Assembly: GCF_009735645.1 (NCBI RefSeq) | Contig: NZ_CP032550.1 | Span: 744,001-808,000 of the forward strand | Direction: 5' to 3' | DNA from: Microbacterium oryzae | Lineage (GTDB): Bacteria; Actinomycetota; Actinomycetes; Actinomycetales; Microbacteriaceae | DNA length: 64,000 nt | In this document: one piece after another, positions 35,007 through 53,927 of the stretch | Layout of the letters: each line of letters begins with the position of its first letter | Position numbering within the stretch: the stretch's first letter is position 1 | Made by a program: the position numbers and the translations under genes | The notes under the pieces: generated by a model | Databases searched by the model: none | What the model was told of the DNA's origin: nothing | What the model saw: only the letters and a program-made list of their open reading frames with translations

Positions 35007-35379
35007 GAATGGGTCGGCTGGACGGTCGCGTCGCGGGCGGTTCGCCGCACCGCGCCGAGGAACGTCCGGGCTCCACAGGGCAGGGCGGTGGGTAACACCC
35101 ACCCGGAGTGATCCGCGAGACAGTGCCACAGAGAACAGACCGCCGGGATCCGTCCCGGTAAGGGTGAAACGGCGGTGTAAGAGACCACCGGGGGTCATGG
35201 CGACATGACCCGCCAGGTAAACCTCGCCCGGAGCAAGACCAGACAGAGGATGTTGACGCGGCCCGCCGAGTCCTCGGGTAGGTCGCTGGAGCGGCACGGC
35301 AACGTGTCGCCGAGAGAGATGGCCGTCGATGGGGCGCGAGCCCCGGGACAGAACCCGGCGTACAGGCCGGCCCATTCGC
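35007..35379 (+). ncRNA. rnpB: RNase P RNA, type A
   Basis: Catalytic RNA that trims tRNA 5' leaders. P1 pairs GCGAATGGG at the 5' end with CCCATTCGC at the 3' end. The core consensus elements are present: GAGGAACGTCCGGGCTC near 35057, the ACAGA/GGTAAGGGTGAAA stretch near 35130-35170, GTAAACC near 35217, and GGACAGAACCCGGCGTACAG near 35346. Length ~373 nt is normal for high-GC actinobacteria. Most of the 456-bp gap between flanking genes is this RNA. Confidence 0.95.
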
Positions 35380-50898: not shown

Positions 50899-51642
50899 TC
50901 AGCGTCGCGGTGTCCACCCTGCCGGTCCGTCGAAGAGCGCGCGTTCGCGATCGACGGCGGCCGACCATCCCTGCGCGGCGTCATCGCCGTCGAACGCGCC
51001 CCGCGCGAGGCGGAGGCCGACGTCCTCGTGGTGCGATCGCGTCGGTCCGCCCCGGCGGACCGACGCGCGCACGCTCCACGCGTCGTCGGCGAAGCCACCG
51101 CCGCGGAACACGCGATAGTCGTCGTAGCGGGCCGGGTCGAGAAGATCCCAGCACCACTCCCAGACGTTGCCGAGGGTGTCGAACAGCCCGTTCAGGTTCG
51201 GCATCCGGCCACCGACATCCTGCGGAGCGCGCAGACCGTCCGCCGCCGTCCAGGCCACATCGGGCAGCGGTCCGTAGTGCGGGCCTGTCGATCCGGCGCG
51301 GCAGGCGAACTCCCACTCCGCCTCGGTCGGAAGGCGGTACCCGTCCGCCTGGACATCCCAGTGCACGTCCTCGCCGTCGAACGTGTAGACCGGATCGAGC
51401 CCCTCCCACTCCGACGCGGCGTTGCAGAAGCGGATGGCGCGCTGCCAGCTCACCTCGACCGCCGGCCGACGCGGGTGCGACGACGGCACCGCCAGCATCT
51501 CGGCGAGCTGCTCCTCGGTCACCGCGAACACGCCGATCTCGAATGCCTCGAGGTCGACCGAGCGCCGCTCCTTGCGCCGCGCGTCGTGCAGCGTCACGCG
51601 TCCTGCGGGGATCCGCGCCATCTCGAAGTCGACGGAGCTCAT
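50899..51642 (-). CDS. SUMF1/formylglycine-generating-enzyme-like protein without the active-site Cys
   Basis: 247 aa. Fold marks: GYRLPTEAEWEFACRAG (near residue 100), NLNGLFDTLGNVWEWCWDL (near 150) and VFRGGGFADDAWSVRASVRR (near 180). True FGE enzymes have two catalytic Cys in the last segment; there is none here, so it should not make formylglycine. Such domains can serve as binding or hercynine-synthase-like enzymes, but EgtB residues are not visible either. No sulfatase nearby. Confidence 0.82.
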   Translation of the reverse strand: MSSVDFEMARIPAGRVTLHDARRKERRSVDLEAFEIGVFAVTEEQLAEMLAVPSSHPRRPAVEVSWQRAIRFCNAASEWEGLDPVYTFDGEDVHWDVQADGYRLPTEAEWEFACRAGSTGPHYGPLPDVAWTAADGLRAPQDVGGRMPNLNGLFDTLGNVWEWCWDLLDPARYDDYRVFRGGGFADDAWSVRASVRRGGPTRSHHEDVGLRLARGAFDGDDAAQGWSAAVDRERALFDGPAGWTPRR

Positions 51643-51666: not shown

Positions 51667-52341
51667 TCAGCTCGAGGTGATGGTCGTCACGGTGATCGCC
51701 GGGATGATCGCCGCCGTCATGATCGCGGTGTTCATCGCCTGCACCGCTCGCTCCACCGCGCTTCCGGCGGGCGAGGCCCCGACGATCTCCGAGATCCTCG
51801 CCTTCAACGCGCGCGGTCGGCGTCCCGCCGCCTCCTCCCGCAGGATCGTCCCGGCGACATCGAGCCCCTGCAGGATGGCCAGCAGGGTCGCGTCCGCGAC
51901 ACCCGCCGGGGCCGTGCCCGCGAGCACGGCTGCCAGCCGTGCGCGGAGCGCCGCCTCCGGTGCCGGATCCGCCTCCGGTGTCCGCGCTTTGCCCAGCCCC
52001 CAGAACGTCCGCTCGCCGATCGCGAGCACCCCGGCATCGACGAGGGACGCCACCACCGGCTGCTCGGGGTCGAGCTTCGCCCAGGTGATCACCGAGTCGA
52101 GGCGAGCTCCGTCCTTCGCCAGCAGACGCTCGAGAGCGAAGTCGAGCACCGGATGGCCGATGGGGGCATCCGAGGTGATCTGCACGCGCGGACGCTTCTC
52201 CTCACTCAGCGTCACCCGATTCGCGAGCACGAGGTCGGTCACGATCGCGGCCGCCTCCCCGTACGCGCGCATGGATCCCGATCGCTCCTGAGCGCCATCG
52301 GCCGTGGTGAGCAGGAGGTGCAGTTCCTCAACGATCAGCAT
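51667..52341 (-). CDS. GPP34 (Golgi phosphoprotein 3-like) family protein
   Basis: 224 aa, mostly alpha-helical. MLIVEELHLLLTTADGAQER at the N-terminus, GHPVLDFALERLLAKDGARL, and VADATLLAILQGLDVAG match the bacterial GPP34 family, which binds phosphoinositides in eukaryotes and has no firm role in bacteria. The last ~25 residues are hydrophobic (TAAIIPAITVTTITSS). Monocistronic. Confidence 0.85.
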   Translation of the reverse strand: MLIVEELHLLLTTADGAQERSGSMRAYGEAAAIVTDLVLANRVTLSEEKRPRVQITSDAPIGHPVLDFALERLLAKDGARLDSVITWAKLDPEQPVVASLVDAGVLAIGERTFWGLGKARTPEADPAPEAALRARLAAVLAGTAPAGVADATLLAILQGLDVAGTILREEAAGRRPRALKARISEIVGASPAGSAVERAVQAMNTAIMTAAIIPAITVTTITSS

Positions 52342-52444
52342 GCTCCGACCGTACGGCGACGCCTTCGGTCGCGGATCCCCCGTGAGACGGATTCGCGGCG
52401 CCCGGGGGGTCGCCCCCGCACAGCGCGTGATCGAGTTTCTCGCC

Positions 52445-52450
52445 TAGCAT
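52445..52450 (+). promoter_or_regulatory. -10 element of the riboswitch transcript
   Basis: TAGCAT, with transcription expected to start near 52457, about 17 nt before the aptamer. The -35 is not clear. Confidence 0.5.
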
Positions 52451-52473
52451 CGTCTGCGGGGTCGACGATCGAC

Positions 52474-52517
52474 CCGCGGACGAGGGAGCCGTACCCGCAC
52501 CACGACAAGACGGACTC
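52474..52517 (+). promoter_or_regulatory. Guanidine-III riboswitch
   Basis: The stretch matches the guanidine-III class: GGACGAGG, GCCGTACCCG and ACAAGACGG in the fixed order and spacing. P1 forms between GCGG (52476-52479) and CCGC (52495-52498). The pseudoknot helix forms between GAGCCGT (52486-52492) and ACGG-A-CTC (52510-52517), with one bulged A. AAGGG, the ribosome-binding site for the SMR gene, begins 4 nt later, so folding on guanidinium should open translation. An upstream hairpin (52456-52477) shares bases with P1 and could be the off state. Confidence 0.88.
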
Positions 52518-52530
52518 AGAAGGGTCTGCC

Positions 52531-52845
52531 ATGGCATGGGTCGTCCTCATCCTCTCCGGCGTGCTGGAGGCCGTCTGGGCCTCCGCGCTGTCGGCCTCCG
52601 ACGGATTCCGCCGCTGGCGTCCCACGGTGCTGTTCTTCGCGACGATGCTGATCAGCCTGTTCGGCCTCGCGTGGGCGATGAACGATCTGCCCACCGGCAC
52701 CGCCTACGCGGTGTGGGTCGGCGTCGGTGCGACGCTCACCGTCGTGTGGGCGCTCGTGACGCGTCAGGAGAAGGCGAGCCTCGCGCGCATCGGGCTGCTC
52801 GTCCTGCTCGTGGCGTCGATCGCCGGGCTGAAGGTGGTCAGCTGA
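52531..52845 (+). CDS. SMR transporter, Gdx/SugE type (guanidinium exporter subunit 1)
   Basis: 104 aa, four membrane helices. Glu13, the proton/substrate residue, is in LILSGVLEAVWASAL; LPTGTAYAVWVGVGA is the dimer-interface helix. The pattern is of the SugE/Gdx branch rather than EmrE. The guanidine-III aptamer in its leader indicates that it exports guanidinium. Stop overlaps the next start (TGATG), so the two proteins are made together and probably form a heterodimer. Confidence 0.93.
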   Translation: MAWVVLILSGVLEAVWASALSASDGFRRWRPTVLFFATMLISLFGLAWAMNDLPTGTAYAVWVGVGATLTVVWALVTRQEKASLARIGLLVLLVASIAGLKVVS

Positions 52846-53189
52846 TGTCGTGGGCGATCCTGATCCTCAGCGGCCTCTTCGAAGCGGTCTGGGCGACGGC
52901 CCTCGGGCACTCGGACGGCTTCACCGACCCCGGCGCGACCACACTCTTCGCGGTCGCGCTGGTCCTCAGCATGCTCGGGCTCGGGTGGGCCGTCAAGCGC
53001 ATCCCCATCGGCACGGCGTACGCCGTCTGGACCGGGATCGGTGCGGCCCTGACCGTCGTCTACGCGATGGCGACCGGCGCCGAGCCGGTCTCGGTGGGAA
53101 AGGTCGTGTTCCTGTCCGGCATCGTCCTCGCGGTGATCGGACTGAAGCTCGTGCCGAGCGGACGCGAGGAGCAGCCGCCGGCGAGCTAG
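52845..53189 (+). CDS. SMR transporter, Gdx/SugE type (guanidinium exporter subunit 2)
   Basis: 114 aa, four membrane helices, then a short polar tail. Glu13 in LILSGLFEAVWATAL and IPIGTAYAVWTGIGA are kept. Paired, non-identical SMR genes often encode a fixed-topology heterodimer; charges in the loops (KR after helix 2 here, versus RxxR-rich loop 1 in subunit 1) would allow opposite insertion, which I infer only. Confidence 0.92.
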   Translation: MSWAILILSGLFEAVWATALGHSDGFTDPGATTLFAVALVLSMLGLGWAVKRIPIGTAYAVWTGIGAALTVVYAMATGAEPVSVGKVVFLSGIVLAVIGLKLVPSGREEQPPAS

Positions 53190-53198
53190 CGTGGAGGG

Positions 53199-53927
53199 AT
53201 GCCACGCCCTCTCACTCTGATCACCGGCGGCACGCGCGGCATCGGCGCGGCGACCGCCCGACGTCTGGCCGCCGACGGTCACGATCTCGTTCTCGGGTAC
53301 GCGCAGGATGGCCAGGCCGCGTCCCGCACGCAGGCCGAGATCGAGACGCTCGGCGCGAGCTGCCGCATCGTGCGCGCGGACCTCACAGCCGACGCGGGTA
53401 TCGACGAGCTGTTCGCAGCCGTCGAGCCCGGTCGCCTCACCGGGGTGGTCAACAACGCCGGCGCCACGCTGCACATCGGTGCGCTCGTCGACACGCCGAC
53501 CGACGTCATCCGCCGCGTTGTCGACCTCAACCTCACCTCCGCCATCCTCGTCGCCCGGCGGGCGGTGCGGGGCCTCGGCGACGGCGGCGTGCTCGTCAAC
53601 ATCTCGTCGGGCGCCGCGACGACGGGCTCCCCCGGGGAGTACGTGCACTACGCCGCAGCCAAGGCCGGCGTCGACGCGCTGACGAAGGGTCTCGCCGTGG
53701 AGGCCGCCGCGCGGGGCGTCCGGGTCATCGGCGTCGCGCCGGGGACGATCGAGACCGACATCCATGCCGACGCGGGAGATCCCGGCCGCCCCGCGCGCGT
53801 TGCGGCGGCACACCCCCTCGGACGCGCGGGGCGTCCCGAGGAGGTGGCCGCCGTCGTGGCCTTCGCGCTGTCGGCCGACGCATCCTACGCGGCGGGCACG
53901 ACCATCCGCGTCACCGGCGGCCGCTGA
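53199..53927 (+). CDS. SDR-family oxidoreductase
   Basis: 242 aa classical SDR: TGGTRGIG (residues 9-16), NNAGA near 85, catalytic Ser in NISSGAA and YAAAK near residue 153-157. FabG-like length; C-terminus ends TIRVTGGR. Substrate unknown. 10 bp after the SMR pair and may be read through from it, but nothing ties it to guanidine. Confidence 0.9.
   Translation: MPRPLTLITGGTRGIGAATARRLAADGHDLVLGYAQDGQAASRTQAEIETLGASCRIVRADLTADAGIDELFAAVEPGRLTGVVNNAGATLHIGALVDTPTDVIRRVVDLNLTSAILVARRAVRGLGDGGVLVNISSGAATTGSPGEYVHYAAAKAGVDALTKGLAVEAAARGVRVIGVAPGTIETDIHADAGDPGRPARVAAAHPLGRAGRPEEVAAVVAFALSADASYAAGTTIRVTGGR

Follow-up and report, generated by a model that had tools for sequence, protein, structure and literature searches.

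The guanidine-III riboswitch class is known from leaders that lie near a ribosome-binding site and before an SMR gene, and the closest described RNA for the present comparison is the Thermobifida fusca aptamer (ykkC-III; PMC5696562). As far as the accessible text of that report goes, the crystallised RNA is 41 nt long, carries P1 from nucleotide 1 without a 5′ hairpin, and has its ribosome-binding site 16 nt away; guanidine is said there to expose this site probably by destabilising competing structures, none of which is named in the same text. A review (PMC12186494) agrees in general on the exposure of the ribosome-binding site and adds a control of mRNA stability. The guanidine-II riboswitch (RF01068) has the same ligand, similar genes and also a position near the ribosome-binding site, its fold being unrelated to that of guanidine-III; no RF01068 match was found within the window, by which we mean the whole 64-kb stretch of DNA analysed here, and a guanidine-II element (43 bits; positions 1433–1479 of locus L301) precedes a relative of the second exporter subunit in Collinsella vaginalis. 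On the protein side, the reference system is Gdx-Clo, a homodimer made from one gene, whereas the window contains two genes; about 20% of Gdx proteins occur in heterodimer pairs according to PMC9574504, so that the paired arrangement is not unusual.

The window leader compares with these systems through the following elements.

52456–52520, plus strand: guanidine-III riboswitch (RF01763, 47.4 bits).
52476–52479, plus strand: 5′ strand of P1, GCGG, part of the pseudoknot; pairs with CCGC at 52495–52498 and covaries across the family.
52495–52498, plus strand: 3′ strand of P1, CCGC, partner of GCGG at 52476–52479.
52486–52492, plus strand: 5′ strand of P2, GAGCCGU, partner of 52510–52517.
52510–52517, plus strand: 3′ strand of P2, ACGGACUC (ACGGaCUC), with A52514 bulged; 52511–52517 also take part in a predicted off hairpin.
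52518–52524, plus strand: Shine-Dalgarno sequence AGAAGGG of the first exporter gene (SMR1), 6 nt 5′ of its ATG.

The Rfam covariance model RF01763 matches the plus strand over its full length (model positions 1–67 of 67) at a score well above the gathering score of 36, with E = 1e-6 in the window and 1.2e-8 in the genome, and this match is the sole one across the 3.04 Mb of the genome. Such a search had been named as a check by the original prediction, made from the letters of the DNA, which claimed that the conserved blocks and both helices of the class are present; the claim holds, as the core blocks ACGA, GUAC and GACAAGAC are all exact, P2 is complementary in its letters, and so are GCGG and CCGC throughout, as expected for an H-type pseudoknot. 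The start of an SMR gene lies 11 nt 3′ of the match. The leader at 52456–52530 is thus assigned to the guanidine-III riboswitches by its covariance-model match, and binding of guanidine is predicted. The pseudoknot and core letters are as in the T. fusca aptamer of PMC5696562, with two differences: P1 is GCGG/CCGC in the window versus CCGG/CCGG there, and the ribosome-binding site is located directly behind P2 instead of 16 nt away. A further statement of the original prediction, that this site starts 4 nt past the pseudoknot, applies to its GGG part, while AGAAGGG itself adjoins P2 without a gap. The locus is a sound but unexceptional instance of an established riboswitch class, set before an exporter pair of a familiar type.

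For comparison, 299 genomes of the family Microbacteriaceae were scanned with RF01763, which matched at E ≤ 0.001 in 146 of them and exceeded the cut-off in 138. All 147 matches, that of the window among them, were examined, and their P1 helices were CCGG/CCGG (102), GCGG/CCGC (38), CCCG/CGGG (4), CTGG/CCAG (1), GCGG/CCGT (1) or mispaired (1), the mispaired one being L146, a weak second match of one genome that falls by chance inside a coding region and was dropped from all counts. With five complementary P1 types in 147 loci, and the P2 pair adjoining GUAC being A-U in 122, C-G in 20 and broken in 1 of 143 loci, both helices covary across the family. The 143-locus counts leave out L052, which has no stem by the rule used below, and two loci in which the first gene is broken or its start could not be located (L121 and L024). 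From the order, 110 loci were fetched and 108 parsed (L205 and L252 did not); a held-out set was formed from the 99 order loci having an SMR gene outside the genus, of which 10 had no P2 pattern or start and 89 were used. The loci are related and not independent.

The hairpin upstream of P1 and the probable promoter are located as follows.

52459–52475, plus strand: 5′ hairpin of 7 pairs with loop CGA, stem 1 of the RF01763 model (Rfam model and family stem rule).
52445–52450, plus strand: −10 box TAGCAT, placing the inferred transcription start near 52457.

An upstream hairpin at 52456–52477 had been noted in the original prediction as a feature foreign to the minimal aptamer; the hairpin is indeed present, and its novelty is rejected, because the 5′ stem of the window leader is the 5′ stem of the RF01763 model. 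The stem rule recovers it at 145 of the 146 family loci that remain without L146. At least five pairs are formed in 134/145 of these hairpins, compared with 395/870 control positions, and the hairpin abuts P1 without a gap in 128/145 loci. The stretch is more stable than its shuffles, with a family mean z of −1.94 against −0.52, −0.09, −0.06 and +0.24 in comparison windows, and in the 89 held-out loci the value is −1.95 against 0.12 for the control. A −10-like TANNNT lies 9–17 nt 5′ of the hairpin, mostly at 13–14 nt, in 102/143 family loci, against 0–4 of 143 in background windows, so that the family transcript probably begins with the hairpin. In the order sample, TANNNT is found in all 14 GCGG loci and all 10 paired CCGG loci, and in only 22/79 single-gene CCGG loci. 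That the mRNA probably starts with this hairpin is a further addition to what is known of the class.

That start bears on a rival explanation of the off state, raised in the original prediction, in which the 5′ strand of P1 is taken up by an extension of the 5′ hairpin and the pseudoknot is thereby blocked when guanidine is absent. By its letters, the window hairpin can indeed be extended by four pairs into P1, with one G bulged, and the idea was tested by counting such extensions in the family and by folding the leader from five start positions. An RNA that begins at 52450 or 52453 has its four P1 bases all paired in the hairpin, with a probability of 0.96–1.0, and one that begins at 52456 has them partly invaded (0.56, 0.60, 0.04 and 0); starting at 52457 or 52458, where the −10 box places the transcript start, the invasion falls to 0–0.13, so that by folding it requires bases 52453–52456 in the RNA. 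Growth into P1 by at least two pairs is also rarer than expected from shuffled 5′ flanks, both across all loci (24/145 versus 34.0 ± 4.3) and in the CCGG class (10/101 versus 20.0 ± 3.2), and the stem belongs to the family model and stops at P1 in the 128 loci mentioned above. The GCGG class, to which the window belongs, has no such avoidance (12/39 versus 12.3 ± 2.6), a point in favor of the invasion. On balance, the proposal that the upstream hairpin acts as the off state is disfavoured, since the invasion would draw on bases that lie 5′ of the probable start, and we regard it as quite improbable.

A likelier off state is suggested by the fold of the leader with the pseudoknot left out.

52511–52528, plus strand: predicted off hairpin, 52511–52517 paired with 52522–52528, in the minimum-energy fold without the pseudoknot.

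In this fold, the P2 3′ strand CGGACUC (52511–52517) is paired with GGGUCUG (52522–52528), positions 52522–52524 being paired at 0.98–1.0 and 52518–52521 lying in the loop; only the GGG of the Shine-Dalgarno sequence is thus engaged, and AGAA stays in the loop. P2 and this hairpin are mutually exclusive in the predicted folds, with 52511–52517 common to both, and the hairpin alone is calculated at −8.7 kcal/mol versus −6.8 for P2 alone, in nearest-neighbor energies that omit the pseudoknot. Many relatives have, by eye, an alternative form in which P2 GACUG pairs with CAGUC just 5′ of the AUG and the Shine-Dalgarno sequence lies between. Across the family, the off-hairpin stretch is more stable than its shuffles (mean z −1.31, n = 143), compared with +0.50 and +0.59 for control windows shifted by 12 nt either way and −0.40, 0.01 and −0.07 for two intragenic controls and an upstream one. 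Downstream pairing of the P2 3′ strand occurs in 128/143 minimum-energy folds versus 106.0 ± 5.2 when the linker letters are shuffled; this shuffled control is high (106/143), and composition therefore gives part of the effect. The same trends are seen in the held-out loci, with z of −1.12 versus 0.00 and 0.05, and downstream pairing in 83/89 versus 70.2 ± 4.1 after shuffling. Three loci of the CCCG class (L087, L092 and L141) have no hairpin in this stretch, and for the leader taken as a whole no stability in excess of shuffles is seen (z −0.69). From these models, the Shine-Dalgarno hairpin is a likelier off state than invasion of P1 by the 5′ hairpin. It provides a concrete and comparatively supported candidate for the competing structures that the available text of PMC5696562 leaves unnamed, and it is predicted here for the window; among the titles and abstracts found in the literature, none names a Shine-Dalgarno off hairpin, which the original papers on the class may discuss.

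It is likely that the leader works as a translational ON switch over a heterodimeric exporter of guanidinium, with the Shine-Dalgarno hairpin as the off state. In the proposed mechanism, transcription would start near 52457 from the −10 box at 52445, so that the mRNA would open with the 5′ hairpin, which would be stacked under P1 and might keep nucleases away from the transcript end. Without guanidine, 52511–52517 are predicted to pair with 52522–52528, hiding the Shine-Dalgarno sequence and breaking P2. Guanidinium would bind in the core between P1 and P2, by analogy to the class structure in PMC5696562, stabilising the pseudoknot and its triplex; P2 would then keep its 3′ strand, the Shine-Dalgarno hairpin could not form, and SMR1 would be translated. 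Translation of the second gene, SMR2, would follow by coupling through TGATG, perhaps aided by GAAGGTGG before its start, and the two subunits would insert in opposite directions to give an antiparallel Gdx heterodimer that moves guanidinium out in exchange for protons. The pump is accordingly predicted to be made only when guanidine builds up, the complete guanidine-response cassette being contained within one short stretch. The main output might instead be mRNA stability, the guanidine-folded aptamer obstructing RNase E and the occlusion of the ribosome-binding site mattering little; guanidine-III also protects mRNA from RNase E according to the review cited above (PMC12186494), and a probable 5′-terminal hairpin would suit a protected 5′ end. 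Stability as the main output is nevertheless unlikely in our judgment, as the Shine-Dalgarno sequence lies directly behind P2 and the competing hairpin is enriched in both the family and the held-out loci, although the two outputs are compatible and do not exclude each other.

The exporter downstream of this switch is encoded by two genes.

52531–52845, plus strand: SMR1, Gdx-type subunit of 104 aa, charge bias −4 (PF00893, 76.3 bits).
52845–53189, plus strand: SMR2, Gdx-type subunit of 114 aa, charge bias +4 (PF00893, 66.9 bits).

As the original prediction had read from the DNA, the genes overlap in TGATG, the SMR1 stop and the SMR2 start sharing one base, A52845, and both subunits are of the Gdx type with Glu13. 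Both exceed the PF00893 cut-off, and among solved structures Gdx-Clo is the closest to either protein, the nearest chains being 6wk5 for SMR1 (E 6.7e-21) and 8vxu (4.9e-20) and 6wk5 (8.9e-20) for SMR2, with EmrE far behind at 1.4e-6 and 8e-4, respectively. E13, W16, S42, Y59 and W62, the binding-site residues of Gdx as named in PMC9574504, are present in both subunits as in Gdx-Clo, together with the GXG of TM3, and these five residues are kept in 39/39 SMR1 and 37/37 measured SMR2 proteins of the paired family loci, the remaining two of the 39 SMR2 proteins having been left unmeasured where no E-W motif was found. The best NCBIfam model for both is SugE (NF008512), at 91.9 and 79.8 bits and below its cut-off of 126; since this cut-off is for one equivalog group, the shortfall lowers the name SugE and not the Gdx reading. 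Weak matches to Qac and Ebr models were also obtained, as expected for any SMR protein, and a multidrug exporter of the Qac or Ebr type that is only incidentally under a guanidine switch is very improbable, considering that SugE is the best model, Gdx-Clo is far ahead of EmrE, and the Gdx residues are intact. Guanidinium export in preference to multidrug efflux, as originally proposed, is supported by this argument from the protein family.

The two window subunits have opposite charge biases in adjacent genes, calculated by the rule in PMC9574504 with approximate loop limits, and in this they resemble other SMR pairs described there. The bias averages −3.9 and +5.4 in the paired loci and is 0 in 85/95 single-gene relatives. 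The opposite bias and the kept residues are the grounds on which an antiparallel heterodimer is proposed, and the start of SMR2 lying −4 to +3 nt from the SMR1 stop in 38/39 pairs is that for translational coupling. Judged from these features, the two subunits likely work together as one guanidinium exporter.

The type of P1 goes together with the type of operon. Within the family, paired exporter genes accompany P1 GCGG at each of its 39 loci, and a single gene accompanies CCGG or CCCG at each of 95 SMR loci; the remaining 12 of 146 loci have no intact SMR gene in first place. In the order sample, 14/14 GCGG loci are paired; CCGG/CCGG loci comprise 78 single, 10 paired and 2 without either, and four other P1 types, one locus each, are not paired. 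GCGG thus predicts an exporter pair (53/53 loci in family and order), and the stricter rule of a pair if and only if GCGG is rejected by the 10 paired CCGG loci of the order. Records from Nocardiopsis, Streptomyces and Actinotignum also carry GCGG at the distance of a pair, in a biased draw picked through similarity to SMR2. In the window's own genus, 2/8 RF01763 matches have GCGG with a pair and 6/8 have CCGG with one gene. The closest proteins to SMR1 and SMR2 (73% and 75% identical) belong to a different family of the same order, a pattern suggesting that the cassette has been passed between lineages, or lost and retained, as a whole; a fast tree of 293 rows and 104 columns with few firm branches, used solely to see that the pairs cluster, is too weak to tell exchange from loss and retention. 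Within the order, the letters of the riboswitch therefore predict the architecture of the transporter, one P1 allele going with paired-exporter operons. As the riboswitch class is already known, this link and the assignment of the off state are modest additions.

A second layer of control may exist upstream of the −10 box.

52417–52435, plus strand: degenerate twin boxes CGCACAGC and TGATCGAG, 11 nt apart, in the place of a −35 (8/12 consensus letters).

When the family leaders are aligned on the −10 box, no −35 appears, and two boxes TGNNCAGG are found 11 nt apart, as exemplified by L107, L051, L017, L026 and L068, the promoter of L107 having perfect twin boxes. Twin CTGNNCAG-like boxes with at least 9 of 12 letters occur in 80/143 family loci versus 2/1001 control positions; at least 8 letters are reached by 33/1001 control positions, so that the boxes of the window are weak. 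In 24 genomes, 22 of which were picked for a box score of at least 11, there are 21 twin-box matches with one mismatch or none, and 19 of them are located at the riboswitch; at two mismatches, the pattern and its reverse match about equally often. A second twin-box pattern matched in 4/15 genomes, three times at the riboswitch, and its reversed control also matched several genomes. No wider twin-box regulon was seen in these 24 and 15 genomes, in a search that would miss a regulator with another spacing. We tentatively speculate, with considerable doubt, that a putative dedicated regulator reads twin CTGNNCAG boxes replacing the gdx −35, that the riboswitch with its conserved P2/Shine-Dalgarno off hairpin gates translation, and that riboswitch allele and single or paired exporter travel as one cassette, guanidine export in Microbacteriaceae thereby being controlled twice.

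Several further observations concern the surroundings of the locus and of its relatives. A short-chain dehydrogenase (SDR) gene at 53199–53927 on the plus strand (PF13561) begins 9 nt behind SMR2; it was rejected as a part of the cassette, a relative being present in only 1 of 254 other neighborhoods (146 family and 108 order; 33% identity). The divergent neighbor at 51667–52341 (minus strand) encodes a GPP34 domain (PF05719, 103.6 bits), beyond which lies an FGE-sulfatase-domain protein at 50899–51642 (minus strand), and the window also contains an RNase P RNA of class A at 35010–35378 on the plus strand (RF00010, 274 bits) and three tRNAs. In 10 of 146 family loci (L052, L067, L079, L105, L116, L128, L130, L131, L142 and L143), the riboswitch precedes a small non-SMR membrane protein at about locus position 1080 after orientation. 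These proteins are alike by eye; of three searched, two exceeded the cut-off of NF047864 (CBU_0592 family) and one had no match. No literature joining CBU_0592 and a riboswitch was found, and the CBU_0592-like protein is possibly a new guanidine-related gene. L121 and L024 are guanidine-III leaders whose first SMR gene appears broken or interrupted. Finally, GACGAC replaces GACAAGAC, as though the core had lost two adenines, in L116, L128, L130, L131, L142, L143, L141 and L147; six of these aptamers stand before the CBU_0592-like gene and two before an SMR gene, and changed binding is possible to judge from their letters.
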